Source: Cloacibacillus porcorum (lineage in GTDB: Bacteria > Synergistota > Synergistia > Synergistales > Synergistaceae). From it: a stretch of 64,000 nt of DNA. Made by a program: the position numbers and the translations under genes. This document shows positions 42,320 to 52,811 of this stretch, in pieces. Position 1 is the first letter of the stretch. Each line of letters starts with the position of its first letter. The notes beneath the pieces were generated by a model. That model was not told where the DNA came from. It did not search any database and worked only from the letters and a program-made list of their open reading frames with translations. Where the stretch lies: the NCBI RefSeq assembly GCF_001701045.1, contig NZ_CP016757.1, positions 2,878,219-2,942,218 on the forward strand, written 5' to 3'.

Positions 42320-44075
42320 ACTTACCGATAAAAATGAATGGTCCTCTTATCTGAGGGTCCTAAAATACTGCATCCCCTATAAAAAACGGCTCATCTACGC
42401 CGTTATCTGTATGGCGCTGTCCGCGATCGCCGCAATCACCCCGCCGTGGCTCATAAAGAACGTCGTTGACGACGTGCTCATCCGCAAGGAGACCTATATG
42501 CTGAACCTTCTCTGTTTCAGCGTCGTCTTTCTCTATATCCTGAAGGCCGTATTCACCTACGCCAACCTCTATCTCATGACCTGGGTGGGGCAAAAGGTGG
42601 TCATCGACATCCGCCTCGAGCTCTATGACCGCACGCAGAGGCTATCTCTGCTGACGCTCTACAGCAGGCGCTCCGGCGAATTCCTCTCGCGCATCACGAA
42701 CGATGTGTCGACGCTGCAGAATATCCTTGCCTCGGTGGTCGTAGATTTTGTCGTGCAGGGCATCACCTTCGTCGGAATCATCGGATTGCTGCTCTTCCTC
42801 AACTGGCGGCTGACCCTCGCCACCTTCATGGTGATCCCCATAGCGGTATTCGCCATCGACCAGGCCTCGTCGAAGCTGCGCAGGGTGGGCACGGTGATCC
42901 AGGAACGCCTCGCAATGGTCGCCGCAATCGCGCAGGAGGCGGTCTCGTCGATAAAGATCGTCCGCTCCTTCGCCACCGAGGAGGAGGAATACGAACGGTT
43001 CAAGGAGGAAAGCGATCTTCACTTTAAAGCGGTGATGAAGGGAACACAGGTACGGGGCGCGTTGGAGGGTATCGTCGAGGTCATCCTCATCGCGGCGCTC
43101 GCCGCCATCCTCTGGATCGGCGGCCGCAACGTAATCGGCGGGAAGCTCACCGCCGGCGGCCTCATCGCCTTCCTCACCTACATCGGCCTGCTCGTGCAGC
43201 CGGTGCGCGTGCTCAGCCGCGTCGTCAGCACGATACAGCAGGGCGCCGCCTCCGCCGACCGCGTCTTTGAGATACTGGACGAGGCCAACGAGGTGCCGCT
43301 CACCGAACACCCCGTCGTCCATTCGCCGATGAAGGGACACGTGAGCTTTGAAAATGTCGATTTCCGCTATAACGATTCAAAGCATGTCCTCAACGGCATA
43401 TCTTTTGAGATAAAACCGGGCGAGAAGGTCGCGATCGTCGGCCCTACCGGGGCGGGAAAATCGACGATCGCCGACCTCGTGATGCGCTTTTACGACCCGC
43501 AGGGCGGCGCCGTCAAGGTCGACGGGATAGACCTTCGCGACCTTGAATTAAAGTCATACCGCCGCCAGATAGGCGTCGTCCCCCAGGATCCCGTTCTTAT
43601 GAAGGGCACCCTGGCCTATAATATCGGCTACGGATGCCGCGGCATGACGAAAGCGAGCCTTGAGCGGGCGGCTAAGATGGCCGGGATCTATGATTTCATC
43701 ATGACGCTGCCGCGCGGCTTTGACACCGAGGTCGGAGAACGCGGCGTGACGCTCTCAGGCGGGCAGCGCCAGCGCGTCGCCATCGCGCGCGCCGTCGTGC
43801 GCGACCCACGGATATTGATAATGGACGAGGCAACCTCGTCGCTTGACGCGCTCGTCGAACAGCAGGTGCAGGAGGCGATGCACAACGCGATGGAGGGACG
43901 TACCTCCATCGTCATCGCGCACCGGCTGTCAACGATACGCGACGCCGACCGCATTCTGGTATTGAGGGACGGAAAGATCGCCGAGGCCGGCACTCACGAC
44001 GAACTTGTGGCCGCCGGCGGACACTATTACAGGTTATTCGCAGCAAGCAACGGAGAACACACGGAAGTGGGCTAA
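42312..44075 (+). CDS. msbA: Lipid A flippase-type ABC transporter MsbA
   Basis: 587 residues, with a fused membrane and ATPase half-transporter (six helices in about 1-325, nucleotide-binding domain about 340-580). Walker A is GPTGAGKST, Q-loop IGVVPQDPVLMKG, signature TLSGGQRQRVAIARA and Walker B ILIMDEATSSLD, with the switch His in IVIAHRLST. Operon position between lpxB and lpxK makes a lipid A core flippase the natural role. The gene starts within lpxB, and lpxK begins one base after its stop. Confidence 0.94.
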   Translation: MLKLTDKNEWSSYLRVLKYCIPYKKRLIYAVICMALSAIAAITPPWLIKNVVDDVLIRKETYMLNLLCFSVVFLYILKAVFTYANLYLMTWVGQKVVIDIRLELYDRTQRLSLLTLYSRRSGEFLSRITNDVSTLQNILASVVVDFVVQGITFVGIIGLLLFLNWRLTLATFMVIPIAVFAIDQASSKLRRVGTVIQERLAMVAAIAQEAVSSIKIVRSFATEEEEYERFKEESDLHFKAVMKGTQVRGALEGIVEVILIAALAAILWIGGRNVIGGKLTAGGLIAFLTYIGLLVQPVRVLSRVVSTIQQGAASADRVFEILDEANEVPLTEHPVVHSPMKGHVSFENVDFRYNDSKHVLNGISFEIKPGEKVAIVGPTGAGKSTIADLVMRFYDPQGGAVKVDGIDLRDLELKSYRRQIGVVPQDPVLMKGTLAYNIGYGCRGMTKASLERAAKMAGIYDFIMTLPRGFDTEVGERGVTLSGGQRQRVAIARAVVRDPRILIMDEATSSLDALVEQQVQEAMHNAMEGRTSIVIAHRLSTIRDADRILVLRDGKIAEAGTHDELVAAGGHYYRLFAASNGEHTEVG

Positions 44076-44076
44076 A

Positions 44077-46335
44077 ATGTCGAAAATCTTGCGCAGCTAC
44101 TTAAAATACGCGCGCGGCGAGAGCCGGTTTTCGCCGTGGAGCCTTTTATATCCGTGCCAGTTCGTTACGCACGCCTGGATGAAGCTGCGCATCGGCCTCT
44201 TCAACCGTGGGATATTCTCCGTCACCGACCCGATACTGCCAACGATAAGCATCGGCAACAACAGCTTCGGCGGCACCAATAAGACCCCTATGGCCGAATA
44301 CATCGTCCGCCAGTTTGCCGAAGCGGGAATAAAGGCGGGACTTGTGAGCCGCGGCTACCGGACCAAGGAACACCCGCCCCTCTGGATCGGGCAGGACGGC
44401 AAGAGCACGCGCCGCGACTTCGCGGGCGACGAGCCGCTGATGCTCGCGAAAAGGCTGCCGGATACCAAGGTGGTCGTCTCGCGCAACCGCATCGAGGGCG
44501 TGAAGCTGCTCGCCGCACTCGGCATGGAGGTCGCCGTCACGGACGACACCTTCCAGCACCGTAAGATGGGACGCGACGTCGACATCGTTCTCGTCGACTC
44601 CACCTGCCCCTTCGGCAATGGGCAGGTGATACCCGCGGGCTCCATGCGCGAACCGATGTCGGCTTTCCGCCGCGCGGATATAGTCGTGCTCACCAAGGCC
44701 AATCAGGCCGCCCCGGGAGCCGGGGAGGCGATAAAGAAAAGGCTAGCCCCATATGTGGAGCCGGATAAAATATTCACCGCCGATATAAAACTCGAAAGAT
44801 GGATGGAGATCACGCCCAAGGGAGAGAAGAAACTTCCCGAAGGATTCCTGCCGCGCGGCCGCTACATCGCGGTCTCGGCGATCGGAAATCCCGGCGGCTT
44901 TTATAATTTCCTTGAAGAAATGGGCGTCGGCGTCGCGCTGCGCCGCACCTACAGAGACCACCATATATTGACGAAGGAGGAGCTGGCGGAGCTGGACGCG
45001 CTCGCGGAGGAGAGCGAAGCCGACGGCTTCATCTGTACGGAGAAAGATCTTATGAACATGCCGCGGGAGCTCTCTCTGAACCGCCCGCTCTACGTGCCCT
45101 CGATCGCCGTCTCGCTCCACGACCCGCTCGCCTTTCGCAAAAAGATAATGGAGAGGCTGCGCCCAGCCTTCCTCGTCACCTCCAACGGCCACGGCGAGGA
45201 CGCCATCGGCCTCGTGCTGGCTAAGAAGCTCATCGAACGTTTTAAATGCGCGCAGATAGACGCCTTCACCTTTGTCGGTTCTGGCAAACCATACTCGCTG
45301 AACGGCATCCGCGTCGTCTCGCCGCCGGCGGAGATGCCGAGCGGCGGCGTCGTAAAATACCACCTTACCGACCTGTTTCGGGACCTGCGCCACGGCCTCG
45401 GCCGCTCGATCAGAAAACAGCGGGACCGGATGCGCTCCCTGCTCGGCAAGTACCGCACGCCGCTCTGCGTCGGCGACGTCTACCTGCTCGCCAGCGTCCT
45501 CTGGGGGCAGGGGATGAAGCCGATACTGGTCGCCACCGCGAAGACCGTACACCTGAGCGGCCACCTATGGATAGAAAAGTGGCTGCTGCGCAGGCGCAGC
45601 GTCCTCGTCTGGACACGTGACGAGGAGACGGCCCGCGAGCTCGTCGGGGACGGCGTGCCGGCGGTCTTTTACGGCAACCCGGTGATGGATCTGCTCGACG
45701 AGGTTAAGAACCCGGCCTTCGTCTGGGGCGAACGCGGCGCGAAGATATTGCTGCTGCCGGGGAGCCGGCCACGCGCCTATGAGGATATCAAACTGATACT
45801 TGATACGGTATCGCTGCTCGCCGCGAAGATGGAGTGCAGCTTCGTGATGGTCCCGGCGCCAACGATCGACATCAAAAAGATGACGGAGAATCTTGTGGGC
45901 TGGGAGCTCTCGGAGGACGGGACGGAACTTTTCTCCAAAGAGATCAGCGTGACGGTATGTTATGAACCGGTCGCCGCCGTCGCCTACGGGGCGGAGCTGC
46001 TGATCGGGCTTGGCGGCACGGCGAACCAGCTCTGCGCCGGCTTGGGAATTCCGGTCGTATCGATAATAGAGCGCGGGAAGCTGCGCCAAAAAAAGCTGCT
46101 GCGCGAGGCGGAGATACTCGTCCCCGCGGAGCCGGAGGCGCTATCCGAGGCCGCCTGGACAATACTCTCCGACAATAAACTGCGGCGCTCCATGCAGGAG
46201 GCGGGAATGAAAAACCTCGGACGCACCGGCGCGCTTGAAAAGGTGGTAGAGTACTGCGCGGAGGAGCTTGGCTGGGATACGCGCTGCCGCGTATATGAAA
46301 GATACAGGGATTATCTTGAATCGCTGGAGAAATAG
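44077..46335 (+). CDS. lpxK: Tetraacyldisaccharide 4'-kinase LpxK fused to an LpxB-related domain
   Basis: 752 residues from the ATG at 44077, one base after msbA. The N-terminal half (about 1-360) is LpxK: the P-loop variant SIGNNSFGGTNKTPM, VSRGYRT, FAGDEPLMLAKRLP, DDTFQHRKMGRDVDIVL, PAGSMREP and the late CTEKDLMNMP. The C-terminal half (about 365-752) starts LVTSNGHGEDAIGLVLAKKL and contains LLLPGSRPRAYEDI, CYEPVAAVAYGAELLIGLGGTANQLCAGLGIPVV. That is the lipid-A-disaccharide-synthase-related (LpxB-like) glycosyltransferase fold. One uninterrupted frame joins both; the second domain's role is unknown. Confidence 0.9.
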   Translation: MSKILRSYLKYARGESRFSPWSLLYPCQFVTHAWMKLRIGLFNRGIFSVTDPILPTISIGNNSFGGTNKTPMAEYIVRQFAEAGIKAGLVSRGYRTKEHPPLWIGQDGKSTRRDFAGDEPLMLAKRLPDTKVVVSRNRIEGVKLLAALGMEVAVTDDTFQHRKMGRDVDIVLVDSTCPFGNGQVIPAGSMREPMSAFRRADIVVLTKANQAAPGAGEAIKKRLAPYVEPDKIFTADIKLERWMEITPKGEKKLPEGFLPRGRYIAVSAIGNPGGFYNFLEEMGVGVALRRTYRDHHILTKEELAELDALAEESEADGFICTEKDLMNMPRELSLNRPLYVPSIAVSLHDPLAFRKKIMERLRPAFLVTSNGHGEDAIGLVLAKKLIERFKCAQIDAFTFVGSGKPYSLNGIRVVSPPAEMPSGGVVKYHLTDLFRDLRHGLGRSIRKQRDRMRSLLGKYRTPLCVGDVYLLASVLWGQGMKPILVATAKTVHLSGHLWIEKWLLRRRSVLVWTRDEETARELVGDGVPAVFYGNPVMDLLDEVKNPAFVWGERGAKILLLPGSRPRAYEDIKLILDTVSLLAAKMECSFVMVPAPTIDIKKMTENLVGWELSEDGTELFSKEISVTVCYEPVAAVAYGAELLIGLGGTANQLCAGLGIPVVSIIERGKLRQKKLLREAEILVPAEPEALSEAAWTILSDNKLRRSMQEAGMKNLGRTGALEKVVEYCAEELGWDTRCRVYERYRDYLESLEK

Positions 46336-46352: not shown

Positions 46353-47213
46353 ATGAAAACCGCAAGAGAGGTCAGGGTGAGGGACATCACGGTAGGAGGC
46401 GCGCGGTTGACTGTCGCCGCCGGTCCCTGTGTGCTCGACACCTTTGACGAAGCGCTGATGATCGCCCGCGAGATGAAGAAATACTGCGCGGAGTTTGGTT
46501 TCAATTACATATTCAAGGCCTCTTTCGACAAGGCCAACAGAACCTCGATAACAAGTTTCCGCGGCCCGGGGATAGAAACGGGACTCGAATGGCTTTCGGA
46601 GATCGGACGGCTTGCGGATGTTCCCGTGGTGACCGACATCCACGAGCCAGGCCAGGCGGAGATCGCCGCGCGCCATGTGGATCTGCTGCAGATACCGGCC
46701 TTCCTCTGCCGTCAGACAGATCTGCTCGCGGCGGCAAGCAAGACGGGCAAGCCACTCAATGTCAAGAAGGCGCAGTTCATGGCCCCCGAGGACATGGGCG
46801 CCGTCGTCGGCAAGTGCCGCGAAAGCGGCTGTGAGGATGTCATCCTCTGCGAGCGCGGGACGGCCTTCGGCTATCACGAGCTCTCGGTGGACTTCCGTTC
46901 GCTGCCCGTCATGCGCGCGCTCGGCTGTCCCGTGATGTTCGACGCGACGCACAGCGTCCAGAAGCCCGGCGGCAAGGGCACCTGCAGCGGCGGCGACCGC
47001 TCCTTCGTGCTGCCGCTGATCCGCGCCGCCGCCGCGCTCGGCATCGACGCGCTCTTTATGGAGGTGCACCCGAACCCCGACGCCGCGAAATGCGACGGCC
47101 CCAACTCAATCCCGCTCTCCAAGGTGCGCGAGGTGCTGCGCCAGACATACGAGATAGATAAGATTGTCCGCGAAAAGATAGATTTCGCGGCGCTGGACTG
47201 GTCGGAGGAATAG
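46353..47213 (+). CDS. kdsA: 3-deoxy-8-phosphooctulonate synthase
   Basis: 286 residues. It condenses phosphoenolpyruvate with arabinose 5-phosphate to Kdo 8-phosphate. TVAAGPCVLD, FKASFDKANRTSITSFRGPG, VVTDIHEPGQAEIAA, QIPAFLCRQTDLL, CERGTAFGYHEL, PVMFDATHSVQKPGG and FMEVHPNPDAAKCDGPN are KdsA hallmarks. In SVQKPG the residue set suggests the metal-dependent or independent type should be judged by the Cys/Asn at the N-terminal motif: AGPCV has Cys, pointing to the metal-dependent class. AAGGAG precedes the start. Confidence 0.97.
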   Translation: MKTAREVRVRDITVGGARLTVAAGPCVLDTFDEALMIAREMKKYCAEFGFNYIFKASFDKANRTSITSFRGPGIETGLEWLSEIGRLADVPVVTDIHEPGQAEIAARHVDLLQIPAFLCRQTDLLAAASKTGKPLNVKKAQFMAPEDMGAVVGKCRESGCEDVILCERGTAFGYHELSVDFRSLPVMRALGCPVMFDATHSVQKPGGKGTCSGGDRSFVLPLIRAAAALGIDALFMEVHPNPDAAKCDGPNSIPLSKVREVLRQTYEIDKIVREKIDFAALDWSEE

Positions 47214-47215
47214 AG

Positions 47216-48220
47216 ATGAATCTGCCGTACGAACGCGAAGAAAAGAAACTCTCATCCGAGGAGCTGCTGGCCACCGGAAGAGATATCATGCTCAAAGAGG
47301 CGGAGGCGCTCAAAAGCGCGACCGAGAGAATGGGTGCGGAGATGGCCTCCGCCGCCCACCTCGTGAGCCGCTGCCGCGGACGCATCGTCGTCTCCGGCCT
47401 CGGCAAATCGGGGCATGTGGGGCGCAAGACGGCGGCGACCTTCGCATCGCTCGGCGTACCGGCCTTCTTCCTCCACGCCACGGAGGGAGCGCACGGCGAT
47501 TTAGGCATGGTCTGCCGCGAAGACGTCGGATATTTCCTCAGCAACAGCGGCGAGACCCAGGAGCTGATCGCGCTCATCCCCTATTTCAAGAGGCTCGGCG
47601 CGCCGATCATCGCCGTCACCGGCAACCCTGAATCGACGCTCGCGCGCGAGGCGGATATCGTCCTCAACTGCCACGTTGAATCCGAGGCCGACCCGCTGAA
47701 GCTCGCGCCAACCAGCAGCACGACGCTGCAAATGGCGCTCGGCGACGCGGTGGCGGGCATGTCTACGCTGCTGCTCGGCCTCCAGAAGGAGGACTTCGCC
47801 CTCTTCCACCCGGGCGGCTCGCTCGGCAAGCGGCTGCTGCTGCGCGTCTCCGACCTGATGGGCAGCGGCGACAGGATGCCGATAACGAAGCAGGACGCGA
47901 GGGTGCGCGACGCGCTATTCGACATCACCAGCAAAGGCTACGGCGCGACGGCGATCGTCGACGACGAGGGCAAACTCACCGGCGTATTCACCGACGGCGA
48001 CCTGCGCCGTTTCATCGAAAAAGAGGGGCTCGAGGGCCTCGAACTCCCCGTCTTCCGCGCCATGACGAAGAACCCGCGCGTCATCGGGCCGGAACGGCTC
48101 GCCGTCGAGGCGGTGCGCATCGTAGAAGAGTGGGAGGTCTCCGCCCTCATCGTGGTACAGGACGGCAAGCCGATCGGCATGGTCCACATCCACGAGATCC
48201 TTAAGGCGGGGGTGGCCTAG
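47216..48220 (+). CDS. kdsD: Arabinose-5-phosphate isomerase KdsD (SIS-CBS)
   Basis: 334 residues. An N-terminal SIS domain (about 35-180: VVSGLGKSGHVGRKTAATFASLG, HATEGAHGDLGM, SNSGETQELI) is followed by two CBS domains (about 220-334). It converts ribulose 5-phosphate to arabinose 5-phosphate for KdsA. Start lies two bases after the kdsA stop with GAGGAAT upstream. The TAG stop lies in the same frame as waaA, which begins immediately after. Confidence 0.96.
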   Translation: MNLPYEREEKKLSSEELLATGRDIMLKEAEALKSATERMGAEMASAAHLVSRCRGRIVVSGLGKSGHVGRKTAATFASLGVPAFFLHATEGAHGDLGMVCREDVGYFLSNSGETQELIALIPYFKRLGAPIIAVTGNPESTLAREADIVLNCHVESEADPLKLAPTSSTTLQMALGDAVAGMSTLLLGLQKEDFALFHPGGSLGKRLLLRVSDLMGSGDRMPITKQDARVRDALFDITSKGYGATAIVDDEGKLTGVFTDGDLRRFIEKEGLEGLELPVFRAMTKNPRVIGPERLAVEAVRIVEEWEVSALIVVQDGKPIGMVHIHEILKAGVA

Positions 48221-49498
48221 CTGTCGCTGCTGCGCAGTCTGTACCAGCTTCCGATAAACGCCTTCTTCGCCCTTTCACAGGACAGACTTAAGGCGAAATA
48301 TACCGAAGGCAACGACGAGCGTCAGGGAAAGATACCGCCCGAAAAGCTTGCGATGCTTTCCGGCGCGCGCCCCGTGTGGGTGCACGCCGTCTCGGTCGGC
48401 GAGGTACAGGCGGCGGTGCCCTTTATAAAGGCGGCGCGGGCCGACGGCTACAAAGGCCCCATCGTCCTCTCGACGACGACACAGACGGGAAAGGCGATGG
48501 CCGAGCGGCTCGGCGGCGGACTATTCGACCTCCATATCTACTATCCATGGGACAAGAAAAAGTTCGTCGCGCTGGCACTTGATACGCTTCGCCCAGAGCT
48601 GTTCGTCACCGCGGAGACCGAACTCTGGCCAAACATGCTCTGGGAGTGCCGCGAGCGCGCGATTCCCGCCTTCCTCATCAACGGCCGCATCTCCGACCGT
48701 ACATGGGGCCGTATCAGCGGCGGGATCGCCAAACATGCGGCGGCCAGCCTCTACTCGCTATTCAGCGAGCTTTATCTCCGCGACGAAGAGGACGCGCGGC
48801 GGCTCTCGGAGGTCGGCGTAAGGGCGGAAAAGCTTCACGTCCTCGGAGACAGCAAAATCGACGCGCTGCTCGCGAGAAAAAACACCGCGGCCCGCGACGG
48901 CTGGCGGGAAAAATTCGGCGCGCCGGAGCGCCCGATATTCATCGCCGGCAGCACCCATACGGGCGAGGACGAAAAGGTCATCGCCGCCTTTGAGCTGCTG
49001 CGCGAGAGCAGGCCGGATGCGCGGCTCATCATCGCGCCCCGCCATCCGGAGAGGGCGGAGGCGGTCGCCTCGCTCGTTCCGAAAAAATATAAAACCATGA
49101 GGCTGTCGGCGCTCGCAGAGGGCTGGGACGTCCTTATCATAGATAAGATCGGCGTGCTTTTCGACCTCTACGGCACGGCATACTCCGCTTTCGTCGGCGG
49201 CAGCTTCGCCGACAAGGGCGGGCAAAATATCCTCGAACCATTCTCCTGGGGCGTCCCCGTCCAGTACGGGCCTCACATGGAGGATTTCGCGCAGGCTTCG
49301 CGCGCCTTCATCTCAATGGGCGCGGCGGCGCAGGTGGCGGACGAGAGGGAGCTCGCCGAGGTGTGGCTCAGCCTCGCCGCGGAGAGGGATACCGGAGAGA
49401 GATGGCAGCGGCTGAGCCGTGATTACTTTGAAAAATCATGCGGCGCCTCTATGCGCACATGGCAAATGATAAAAAAATATCTAAGCGGTTACGGTTAA
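48221..49498 (+). CDS. waaA: Kdo transferase WaaA (KdtA), probable CTG start
   Basis: 425 residues if read from CTG 48221, directly after the kdsD TAG. No ATG, GTG or TTG occurs in this frame before ATG 48353 (residue 45). Starting there would remove the N-terminal membrane-anchor region (SLLRSLYQLPINAFFAL) and the KIPPEK segment that WaaA proteins need, leaving only 381 residues. GT30 motifs follow: VWVHAVSVGEVQAA, TETELWPNMLWECR, FIAGSTHTGEDE, IIAPRHPERAEAV and FADKGGQNILEPFSWGVPVQYGPHM. It attaches Kdo to lipid IVA at the inner membrane. Confidence 0.88.
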   Translation: MSLLRSLYQLPINAFFALSQDRLKAKYTEGNDERQGKIPPEKLAMLSGARPVWVHAVSVGEVQAAVPFIKAARADGYKGPIVLSTTTQTGKAMAERLGGGLFDLHIYYPWDKKKFVALALDTLRPELFVTAETELWPNMLWECRERAIPAFLINGRISDRTWGRISGGIAKHAAASLYSLFSELYLRDEEDARRLSEVGVRAEKLHVLGDSKIDALLARKNTAARDGWREKFGAPERPIFIAGSTHTGEDEKVIAAFELLRESRPDARLIIAPRHPERAEAVASLVPKKYKTMRLSALAEGWDVLIIDKIGVLFDLYGTAYSAFVGGSFADKGGQNILEPFSWGVPVQYGPHMEDFAQASRAFISMGAAAQVADERELAEVWLSLAAERDTGERWQRLSRDYFEKSCGASMRTWQMIKKYLSGYG

Positions 49499-49580
49499 GG
49501 CATTTTATCAACGTCAGATGATCTGAAAGCTCGACTTTTTAATTTTTGCGAACCGAATAGTTTGTCTATCGGGCGTATAC

Positions 49581-49672
49581 TATAATAATATTGAAGCCGC
49601 AGGCGAAACACGCCGTAAGGCGGGGGCCTTTGACCGGCTGCACCTAATTATGACGCGGGAGGAAGATTGTTT
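49581..49672 (+). promoter_or_regulatory. Promoter and leader of the 404-residue gene
   Basis: TATAAT at 49581-49586 has a weak -35. The leader of about 80 bases contains GGCG/CGCC stems (around GCAGGCGAAACACGCCG) and ends in GGAGG 10 bases before the ATG. Upstream, TCAGATGATCTGA at about 49515-49527 is a perfect 13-base palindrome. It suggests a fresh promoter inside the LPS block. Confidence 0.45.
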
Positions 49673-50887
49673 ATGAATATCAACCGTGAACTGATAGAGA
49701 AATTCTACGGAGGGCTCGACGAACGTTCGCAGGAGGCGCTCGACGCCGCCGCAGAACGGGTCGTCGCCGCTAAAAAACGCGGCGGCAAGGTGGCGGTCGT
49801 CACCGGAAGCGGCCCGAACCTGCATGAGGGCGTAACGACCCTCATCGCCGAGCTGATCGAAAAGGGCATCGTCGACGGCGTCACGACCAGCTCCGCCGTC
49901 GTCAATCACGAAATGGGCGGCGCGCTCGACCGGGTGAAGATGTGCGGCGCAGCTCAATTTGGACTTGACGAGGACAATATGCCGCGCGGCAACGTCTTTG
50001 AATTCACAGATATGAGCGACGGGGAGCTCGCGGAGCTCGCGAAAGAGATGATCCTTGACGACGAGCTTCTCGCGAAGCGCCACAGCGCCGAGGGGCACAT
50101 GGTGATCAAGGCCGCGGCGAATATGGCCTACCCGATGGGACTGCGCACGGAGAGGCTCGCGGAGGAGATACATTCCCTCTGCCGCCAGTCCGGCCTGCCC
50201 TTTGAGACCGTCGCCGGCTGGGGCTGCGACCGGCGCACGATGCTCGGCAGCGGCGCCGCCAAGAACGTTCCCGTCCTCGTGACGATCCCGCAGCTGGTCG
50301 GCGGCGGCCACGTCGGCCTCGCGGTCGGCGACAGCATCCCCATCGCCGAACGCTCGCGCCGTATCGCCGCGATGCTGGGCTCCGCCGACGTCATCATCGA
50401 ATCGGCGGTGGCGCTGACGCAGGAGATACACGACGGCCCATTTGAGACCTACACCGGCCACGGCATCTGGTCCTGGTGGCAGGGACAGTCCGTCTACAGC
50501 CTGAAAGACAAGTCTCTCATCCGCTTCGACCTTGACGAAAACCTGCGCCGCGCTCAGGACCTGCAAAAGTCGAGCGCGATGATCCAGGAGGCGATCGACA
50601 AGGGGCTGCCAAAGACGAAGATATCGAAGATTCCCTTCCGCATGGAGATGTCGGCCTTCGCCCGCCACGAGGGAAGTCTGCCCGTGATCGGCGACATCGG
50701 TATGATCTGGCCGGTATTCGCGACAAAGATCGCCGACGCGCTCGGCATCGAGCTTGAATTCATGAGCTATAAGCAGGAGACGGAAGAGGGCCGGGCGATG
50801 CGCGAATGGATCGTCGAAAACGTCAGGCCGCTTGACCGCGCAGAGATGCTGAAAAAATACAGAGAATGGCAGGCGCAGAACAGATGA
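49673..50887 (+). CDS. Unrecognised 404-residue protein in the Kdo cluster
   Basis: 404 residues from ATG 49673 (the TTG six bases earlier is too close to GGAGG). Soluble, no signal peptide. Near the N-terminus VAVVTGSGPNLHEGVTTLI and ELIEKGIVDGVTTSSAVVNHE faintly recall the nucleotide-binding part of deoxyhypusine-synthase-like proteins, but the later catalytic lysine motif of those enzymes is not visible. Other blocks that look conserved are AGWGCDRRTMLGSGAA, TIPQLVGGGHVGLAVGD and GHGIWSWWQGQSVYSL. It lies between waaA and kdsB and shares an ATGA overlap with kdsB, which points to a surface-sugar role. I cannot assign a function. Confidence 0.85.
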   Translation: MNINRELIEKFYGGLDERSQEALDAAAERVVAAKKRGGKVAVVTGSGPNLHEGVTTLIAELIEKGIVDGVTTSSAVVNHEMGGALDRVKMCGAAQFGLDEDNMPRGNVFEFTDMSDGELAELAKEMILDDELLAKRHSAEGHMVIKAAANMAYPMGLRTERLAEEIHSLCRQSGLPFETVAGWGCDRRTMLGSGAAKNVPVLVTIPQLVGGGHVGLAVGDSIPIAERSRRIAAMLGSADVIIESAVALTQEIHDGPFETYTGHGIWSWWQGQSVYSLKDKSLIRFDLDENLRRAQDLQKSSAMIQEAIDKGLPKTKISKIPFRMEMSAFARHEGSLPVIGDIGMIWPVFATKIADALGIELEFMSYKQETEEGRAMREWIVENVRPLDRAEMLKKYREWQAQNR

Positions 50888-51639
50888 CGGAGCCAAAATT
50901 CCTCGGAGTAATACCGGCGCGCTACGCCTCGTCGCGCCTTCCCGGAAAACCGCTGCTGGAAATCGGCGGCAAGACGATGCTTGAACACGTCTACCGCCGT
51001 TCGCTCGCCTCCGGCGTATTCTTCCGCGTGGTGATCGCCACAGACGACCACCGCATCTACGACGCCGCCGAAAAGGTTGGCGCCGACGTACTCATGACGC
51101 GCGCCGACCACCCGGACGGTTCCAGCCGTGTCGCGGAGATCGCCGCGAAGATAGACACCGACTACGTAATCAACATCCAGGGGGACGAGCCGATGCTTGA
51201 CCCGCGCATGCTGCGCGAACTCGCGGCGGGATTCGCCGCCGACCCGGAGGCCGATTCGGCGACCGTCTGCGTGCCAATCACCAGGGAAGAGGACTTCCAG
51301 AACCCAAACATCGTGAAGGTGGTCCGCGCCCAAAACGGCCGCGCGCTCTACTTCAGCCGCTCGCCCATTCCCTATCCGCGCAACAGCGCCGGCTGCCCCG
51401 TCTGGGAACACCTCGGCATCTACGCCTTTACCAAGCAGTTCCTGCTCAAATTCGTGGCGCTCCCGCCCACACCGCTGATGCAGACGGAGAGTCTCGAACA
51501 GCTGCGGATACTGGAACACGGCTACTCAATGGCGGTCATTCCGACAAAATACCCCTCCGAGGGACCCAACGTCAACACGCTTGAGGATCTTGAAGAGGCG
51601 CGGCGGATATTCGCCCAAAAGAAAAACGAAGAAAAATGA
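50884..51639 (+). CDS. kdsB: CMP-Kdo synthetase
   Basis: 251 residues from the ATG at 50884, overlapping the previous stop. It activates Kdo with CTP. FLGVIPARYASSRLPGKPL is the diagnostic N-terminus; VVIATDDHRI, DHPDGSSRVAEIA, NIQGDEPMLDPRML, YFSRSPIPYPRN, HLGIYAFTKQFL and ESLEQLRILEHG follow. Length is standard. The stop overlaps the next start (ATGA). Confidence 0.97.
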   Translation: MTEPKFLGVIPARYASSRLPGKPLLEIGGKTMLEHVYRRSLASGVFFRVVIATDDHRIYDAAEKVGADVLMTRADHPDGSSRVAEIAAKIDTDYVINIQGDEPMLDPRMLRELAAGFAADPEADSATVCVPITREEDFQNPNIVKVVRAQNGRALYFSRSPIPYPRNSAGCPVWEHLGIYAFTKQFLLKFVALPPTPLMQTESLEQLRILEHGYSMAVIPTKYPSEGPNVNTLEDLEEARRIFAQKKNEEK

Positions 51640-52811
51640 ACGCGGGAAACTCCTTAAGGGCAATACTCATCCTCAGCGACGGCATCCGCGGCCATATAAA
51701 CCAGAGCCGCGGCGTCGCCCACTGGCTCTCGCAGCTGACAGGGGCGGAGATACTCGAGAGTGAAGTCCCCGCCCTTACGGGTACGGCCAAGGCGCGTGCC
51801 AAGACCGCCGCGCGTTCTCTGGCCGCTGGCGGCACGCGGCGCGACGCGCGCGACTGGCTCGCCGCGGCGGACGGCGACGCGCTGATACGCCGCGTAGGCC
51901 AATGGTTTGCCGAACGCAACATTCAGGAGGGCTCGGGAGCCGTGCTGATAATCTCCGCCGGCAGCACCCCCGCCCCCTACAACATCGCCCTCGGCTACAT
52001 CTGGCGCTGCGCCTGCGCGACCGTCATGACCCCCGGCACGATCGGCACCGACCCATTCGACTTCGCGATCGTACCGGAGCACGACTATCCTGAACGAAAA
52101 CCCAACATACTTGTGACGCTCGGCTCGCCGAACTACGTCATTAAAGAAAACCTCAAAAAAGAGGCGGCGGCGCTGCTCGCCGAACACCCCTCATCCGCGG
52201 GAGAGATTTGGTCGGTGCTTATCGGCGGAGACGACGCGAACTACGTCATCACCCCGGAATGGGTCAAAAAACAGCTGGGGCAGATATTGAACCTCGCGCA
52301 GCACGCCGGCGCGGACCTCTATATCACCACCTCGCGGCGCACAAGCCCCGCGGCGGTGAAGACCGTCAAGACGCTTGCCGCGCACTCCCCCGCCGTCAAG
52401 TATCTGCTCGTCGCCTCGGAGGACGACTTCAACCCCATACCGGCGATGCTCGGCTTCTCCAAAGAGGTATTCTGCACCGAGGACTCGGTCAACATGGTCT
52501 CTGAGACGATCACGGGCGGCCATCGCGCGGTGCTGCTGCGCGTGGGACACCGCGGGGGCTTCAAAGGGCTGATCCAGAGGGCGACCGCCTCGCTGGTAAA
52601 CGCCGGCGCCCTCTCGCCTAACATGCTCTGGGGCATTCCGAAATTCGACCTCGTATTCGACCATTTCGCGAGGAACGACTCCCTGATAGAATACAGGGAC
52701 TGGCTGCGCGTACGCCGGGAAAATACACAGCTTCCACCCACCGAAGAGGCTTCGGAAGAATTCAACGAGGCAAAACGTGCCGCGCAGTGGATATACGACA
52801 ACTGGAAGTAA
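51636..52811 (+). CDS. ELM1-family (DUF1022) predicted glycosyltransferase
   Basis: 391 residues. LSDGIRGHINQSRGVAHWLS near the N-terminus, SAGSTPAPYNIALGY, VTLGSPNYV, VLIGGDD, YITTSRRTSPAAVKTV and EDSVNMVSETITGGHRAVLL follow the pattern of the mitochondrial-fission ELM1-like family, which has a GT-B fold in bacteria and occurs in LPS clusters. It overlaps kdsB by four bases and ends the operon. Activity and acceptor are unknown. An insertion around residues 60-85 is alanine/arginine-rich. Confidence 0.8.
   Translation: MNAGNSLRAILILSDGIRGHINQSRGVAHWLSQLTGAEILESEVPALTGTAKARAKTAARSLAAGGTRRDARDWLAAADGDALIRRVGQWFAERNIQEGSGAVLIISAGSTPAPYNIALGYIWRCACATVMTPGTIGTDPFDFAIVPEHDYPERKPNILVTLGSPNYVIKENLKKEAAALLAEHPSSAGEIWSVLIGGDDANYVITPEWVKKQLGQILNLAQHAGADLYITTSRRTSPAAVKTVKTLAAHSPAVKYLLVASEDDFNPIPAMLGFSKEVFCTEDSVNMVSETITGGHRAVLLRVGHRGGFKGLIQRATASLVNAGALSPNMLWGIPKFDLVFDHFARNDSLIEYRDWLRVRRENTQLPPTEEASEEFNEAKRAAQWIYDNWK

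Follow-up and report, generated by a model that had tools for sequence, protein, structure and literature searches.

Kdo is the sugar that joins lipid A to the remainder of bacterial lipopolysaccharide (LPS). As the first sugar on lipid A it is nearly universal, and its pathway counts among the drug targets. Few changes to Kdo before its activation are known (8-amination by KdnA/KdnB), and 8-amino-Kdo is known so far mainly from Shewanella. The KdnA/KdnB route of Shewanella (5k8b, 5k8c) is among the closest described counterparts of the locus reported here, in which an unnamed gene, X, takes the same slot of the Kdo operon and is likewise accompanied by a dedicated KdsB. KdnA and KdnB are, however, a PLP aminotransferase and an iron alcohol dehydrogenase, respectively, without sequence or fold kinship to X.

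The window analysed is a stretch of 64,000 nucleotides from Cloacibacillus porcorum (contig NZ_CP016757.1). Its Kdo operon and neighbouring features are as follows:

44005..46335, + strand: lpxK plus a second half at the C-terminus, LpxB-like by eye (Pfam LpxK over residues 46-385 only)
46353..47213, + strand: kdsA, Kdo-8-phosphate synthase (named from sequence, outside the family scan)
47216..48220, + strand: kdsD, arabinose-5-phosphate isomerase (family scan)
48353..49498, + strand: waaA, Kdo transferase (NCBIfam PRK05749 models, at most 275 bits, under the curated cut-offs)
49562..49589, + strand: weak sigma-70-like match 5' of X, not clearly above chance
49673..50887, + strand: X, 404-aa unnamed protein placed in the deoxyhypusine-synthase superfamily (family scans, alignment, predicted fold, profiles)
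50866..51639, + strand: kdsB2, CMP-Kdo synthetase of the X-associated clade, start maybe at 50884 (TIGR00466 over cut-off; KdsB tree)
51636..52811, + strand: gene for a Mito_fiss_Elm1-like (ELM1-like) protein, the conserved next gene of the Kdo operon (PF06258, 2e-45)

Gene X in the Kdo operon

The reading frame at 49673-50887 is confirmed as a real gene. A ribosome-binding-like GGAGG lies immediately 5' of its ATG, the GC contents of its three codon positions (64, 42 and 82%) are as in a coding gene, and its stop overlaps the start of kdsB by ATGA, in-frame kdsB starts being found at 50866 and 50884. A preliminary description had presented X as an ORF of 404 aa with several quoted motifs, situated between waaA and kdsB with the ATGA overlap, and re-reading of the sequence together with family scans of the neighbours confirmed each of these points. 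The promoter of its own that X had also been given is not upheld: a single 9-of-12 sigma-70-like match precedes X in the window, where the waaA-to-X gap is 174 nt, against 0.4 +/- 0.6 in shuffled sequences, and in several relatives (e.g., L032, L033, L034 and L036) a few bases are common to waaA and X. The contig of L036, assigned to a Phycisphaerales MAG, agrees in both number and length with that of L038 from Synergistales and is likely a binning error.

The extra C-terminal half of lpxK comprises about 390 aa, has no Pfam match and resembles an LpxB-type glycosyltransferase; genes of like length are found at the lpxK position in other Synergistota Kdo operons.

Family and predicted fold of protein X

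An already named family is ruled out for X, which reaches no cut-off in Pfam or NCBIfam and has no match over cut-off in PHROGs and PDB sequence searches; this agrees with the preliminary description, in which X was unrecognised. X is not a KdnA or KdnB homologue, the family and sequence searches having linked it to no aminotransferase or Fe-ADH family, and literature on "deoxyhypusine synthase-like" proteins or on KdnB yielded nothing on X. Relatives of X are encoded in 291 stretches of public GTDB genomes, the best 80 of which come from Synergistota, Bacteroidota, Negativicutes, Desulfobacterota, a spirochaete and Chlorobiota. Among 43 aligned homologs, 109 of the 404 positions are invariant, including GSGPN-H-EGVT, H253, D254, E258, H263, W266, W269, R323, E325, R331, E333 and D341.

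The best sub-threshold matches of X are all N-terminal, and likeness at the sequence level is limited to the first ~80 residues. They are to the GSU2086 family (NCBIfam NF052581; E 5e-6, 26.2 bits, cut-off 250 bits), TIGR00300 (ornithine cyclodeaminase; 20.4 bits, cut-off 410.8 bits) and deoxyhypusine synthase (DHS), the latter by both NCBIfam dhys (E 0.0013, 18.1 bits, cut-off 304 bits) and Pfam DS (PF01916; E 0.0028, 17.4 bits, cut-off 27 bits). The N-terminal GSU2086 match recurs in 18 X-carrying Synergistota genomes, and the GSU2086 family scores over its cut-off in none of 41 Synergistota genomes.

The AlphaFold2 model of X, computed from the homolog alignment, has a pLDDT of 89.4 and a pTM of 0.91. 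Its top Foldseek matches in the PDB are deoxyhypusine synthases (probability 1.00, E 6e-7 to 5e-5), and the LOR/SDH protein 3c2q is also among the matches. The model supports a DHS fold over the whole chain of X, and the high rmsd (7-12 A) and the TM of 0.4-0.58 (by target, up to 0.58) suggest that X is a distant relative of DHS. The faint N-terminal resemblance to DHS noticed earlier is therefore real in the Pfam and NCBIfam scores and upheld by the structure search; the nucleotide or sugar site suggested at the same time stands as a prediction from the fold and the invariant residues. A viral origin of X finds no support, as a BFVD structure search with the model returned no viral match.

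Direct comparison of the X profile with bacterial DHS-like proteins gives a weak match (E 0.014, probability 3%), and the link between X and DHS goes through GSU2086 and the fold. X and GSU2086 are reciprocal profile matches, the GSU2086 profile reaching X at 6e-7, compared with 0.3 for the best shuffle (hhalign, 2.7e-5), GSU2086 and the DHS-like proteins likewise retrieve each other by profile, and a GSU2086 model (pLDDT 80) matches DHS, LOR/SDH and AgrE/ArgZ. These profile links and fold matches point to X as a distant member of the superfamily. X and DHS (PF01916) have in common the predicted fold as a whole and an N-terminal Rossmann core, but DHS is ~300-350 aa long as opposed to 404 aa, and the sequence score of X against it is sub-threshold; to our knowledge, eIF5A is absent from bacteria. 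TIGR00300, LOR-SDH and the C-terminal ornithine cyclodeaminase of AgrE-ArgZ share with X the NAD-binding fold and a weak N-terminal sequence match, but are not matched by X over the remainder and belong to an amino-acid context.

The GSU2086 family, present in 93 of 148 Desulfobacterota genomes, shares with X profile homology and the same predicted fold, and this cousin of X is likewise found in an LPS inner-core sugar cluster: in Desulfobacterota loci (L185-L204) its genes adjoin gmhA-like genes, named from sequence. It differs from X in that the homology is scored over ~75 residues and lies far under the cut-off, and in its heptose rather than Kdo context, GSU2086 being placed by gmhA/hldE and X by kdsB/waaA. 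The Geobacter gene GSU2086 is flanked by hldE and gmhA, and transposon insertions in any of the three carry about equal costs on electrodes (PMC5585712). GSU2086 is thus a second orphan of the predicted DHS fold in an LPS core-sugar cluster.

Exchange with the kdnB-kdnA-like genes and changes in KdsB

X is present in 25 of 61 Synergistota genomes. The X operon has the order lpxK-kdsA-kdsD-waaA-X-kdsB-ELM1, of which waaA-X-kdsB-ELM1 is found throughout Synergistaceae and also in further Synergistota families. In other Synergistota families, the X-less operons read lpxK-kdsB1-kdsA-kdsD-waaA-FeADH-KdnA-ELM1. Their aminotransferase is KdnA-like (5k8b, 8e-93), and their dehydrogenase falls in the general Fe-ADH family and is, we infer from its place, KdnB. 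X and kdsB2 occupy the slot between waaA and the ELM1-like gene that is held by the kdnB-kdnA-like genes in X-less Synergistota. The ELM1-like gene (51636-52811) is a frequent next gene in both kinds of Kdo operon, and in Succiniclasticum it follows X.

Among the 61 genomes, 14 have both X and KdnA, 11 only X, 31 only KdnA and 5 neither; some of these five may be gaps, because one of them (G050) has an Fe-ADH gene beside waaA. X and KdnA show a modest negative association (Fisher p 0.016; 0.033 when counted by genus), which ignores kinship. The genome of the window itself has a second cluster, kdsB-KdnB-KdnA, outside the window (G000:C1:784554-787665; L098 8480-11672), with matches of KdnB to 5k8c (1e-49) and of KdnA to 5k8b (6e-82), so that the species is expected to produce CMP-8-amino-Kdo as well as the X-route product. 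From the KdnB/KdnA-like cluster, Synergistota are predicted to make 8-amino-Kdo. Substitution by X for a missing kdsC is ruled out, as KdsC is encoded elsewhere in the same genome; it scores over cut-off in 53 of the 61 genomes, with or without X.

In a tree of 94 KdsB rows, the KdsB2 clade (48 rows, support 96/92) comes entirely from X-bearing genomes and includes the X-linked KdsB of Synergistota, Desulfobacterota and a spirochaete as well as Synergistota KdsB where X is unlinked. The KdsB1 clade has 25 rows, of which 23 are from genomes with KdnA. E77 of the E. coli enzyme is the acidic position of the KdsB loop SGT(D/E)R, the arginine of which binds CTP, to go by its position and the residue list of PMC3149649; that paper places the neighbouring arginine in CTP binding and does not name residue 77. 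The loop of the kdsB2 product of the window reads HPDGSSR, with no acidic residue at position 77. This position is S, C, A or T in all 48 KdsB2 and S in 4/4 KdsB of X-bearing Acidaminococcaceae; it is D in 29/29 KdsB of X-less Negativicutes (acid lost in 0/29) and, in KdsB1, D in 23/24 and N in 1/24. KdsB2 and the KdsB of X-bearing Acidaminococcaceae also have D or N in place of S74. Because Acidaminococcaceae KdsB nests inside that of X-less Negativicutes (98/84, 99/89), apart from KdsB2 (98/94), two separate lineages changed the same position pair alongside X. The KdsB of X-bearing Bacteroidales (5/5) and of one X-bearing Chlorobiota genome keeps an unchanged S-G-T-D-R.

Proposed role of X and its alternatives

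We propose, at a probability of about 0.45, that X is an NAD-type DHS-superfamily enzyme working on Kdo at or near the CMP-activation step, as an alternative to 8-amination. X would be a cytoplasmic and, as the fold suggests, probably NAD(H)-using member of the DHS/LOR-SDH superfamily. We infer that its substrate is Kdo, most likely free Kdo, and that it may act just before KdsB makes the CMP sugar. The modified octulosonate yielded by X would then be activated by the adapted KdsB and put on lipid A by WaaA, X replacing in the Synergistota Kdo operon the KdnB/KdnA route from Kdo to 8-amino-Kdo. The superfamily habitually uses NAD without net redox, so an isomerisation, (de)amination or similar change by X would fit. 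This proposal is based on the predicted fold, the linkage, the operon swap, and the clades and substitutions of KdsB; the unchanged KdsB of Bacteroidales and Chlorobiota, unlinked X, the rarity of X, the 14 genomes with both X and KdnA, the occurrence of only two independent KdsB changes and the limitation of sequence likeness to the first ~80 residues are points against it. The earlier suggestion of a candidate new step in surface-sugar metabolism stands through the kdsB linkage, the replacement of the 8-amino-Kdo genes and the KdsB co-variation; neither a known family of unrelated role nor a lack of context conservation was found.

More tentatively, X and KdsB2 might make and activate an undescribed Kdo derivative, by a third route to a lipid A-linking octulosonate beside those of Kdo and 8-amino-Kdo that uses a DHS-fold enzyme, and X and GSU2086 would then form a branch of the superfamily acting on LPS inner-core sugars. 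A mobile enzyme that replaces kdnAB and is accompanied by an altered active-site loop in KdsB would indicate that the inner core contains a new sugar; the DHS fold, if this is true, would gain its first sugar-related role. Both the occurrence of the DHS fold in a Kdo operon and the exchange with kdnAB are unexpected to a specialist.

The distribution of X bears on this proposal and on its alternatives. kdsB is present in all 24 X-bearing genomes tested. An X-kdsB pair without the rest of the operon is found in Syntrophaceae, Smithella, a Syntrophobacterales, a deltaproteobacterium and a spirochaete, and in 4 of these 5 genomes the paired kdsB is the only kdsB found. Lateral transfer brought X, accompanied by kdsB2, into Desulfobacterota and also brought X into Negativicutes and Bacteroidales; X and KdsB2 moved jointly to Syntrophaceae and Smithella, whose genomes show no other kdsB. 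The Syntrophaceae contig with X is no stray fragment, given its length of 136 kb and a bacterial DHS-like gene that it also carries. Bacteroidales X forms one clade inside Synergistaceae X (95/88) and Negativicutes X another inside the rumen Synergistota type (100/99). Misbinned Synergistota contigs are ruled out for the Bacteroidales copies by their Bacteroidales neighbours, a gene order common to L011 and L014 and their own X clade. In a Prevotellaceae genome (L048 6001-9825), X overlaps an mlaE-like gene, followed by genes for an ABC ATPase and a glycosyltransferase in an envelope-like operon. X is found in 1 of 80 Negativicutes, of which 79 have kdsB; this rarity where Kdo is universal suggests that X is an accessory of Kdo users. 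The question raised earlier, whether X always travels with kdsB and waaA, has a divided answer: X is linked to kdsB across several phyla, but is unlinked to kdsB or waaA in rumen Synergistota, Negativicutes and Bacteroidales, kdsB still being present in the genome.

Unlinked X would also suit an enzyme of polyamine or amino-acid metabolism that resides in the Kdo operon but leaves Kdo untouched. Spermidine, ornithine and lysine are the substrates of the known relatives by fold and the usual chemistry of the superfamily, X of rumen Synergistota neighbours genes for periplasmic amino-acid-binding-like proteins and other unrelated genes, and Bacteroidales X copies stand alone among Bacteroidales genes. 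We nevertheless consider such a role unlikely, given the cross-phylum X-kdsB pairs, the replacement of kdnB-kdnA, the KdsB changes that track X and the kdsB gene in every X genome tested. Lysine is, moreover, absent from residues 238-262, the stretch expected to hold the DHS catalytic lysine, and residues 236-262 have no conserved lysine in the 43 homologs, both in a register derived from motif and secondary structure rather than from superposition.

Alternatively, X could act at a later stage than on free Kdo, near WaaA or the ELM1-like protein, with CMP-Kdo or lipid-linked Kdo as its substrate. Its position between waaA and kdsB, the Succiniclasticum locus, where X precedes the ELM1-like gene and not kdsB, and the unchanged KdsB of Bacteroidales would all accord with a later step, which we regard as quite unlikely since the co-variation and the mobile two-gene unit involve kdsB, not waaA or ELM1.

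Linkage and co-variation would look alike if X were a non-catalytic binding partner or regulator of KdsB and the KdsB changes lay at an interface, and CMP-Kdo synthesis has been called rate-limiting (PMC3149649). This is improbable: the invariant positions of X, rich in H, D, E, R and W, look like an active site, the changed KdsB residue adjoins the CTP-binding arginine (by position, PMC3149649) and not a known contact surface, and Bacteroidales have X together with a different KdsB.

There is similarly little to recommend X as a one-enzyme route to 8-amino-Kdo in place of KdnA and KdnB, even though it takes their operon place and its superfamily handles C-N bonds, as 14 genomes hold both X and KdnA and KdsB2 shares Q211 and E101 with the Kdo-type enzyme of E. 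coli; in KdnA-linked KdsB1, by contrast, these positions are M (211, 23/24) and D (101, 24/24). Q211 presumably takes part in binding the C7/C8 end of the sugar. The KdsB1 changes might be expected to suit an enzyme for 8-amino-Kdo, and their absence from KdsB2 argues that the product of X is not 8-amino-Kdo. A rumen Synergistota MAG (G077; L165, L167) has seven KdsB-like matches, some of them tandem pairs of diverged copies.
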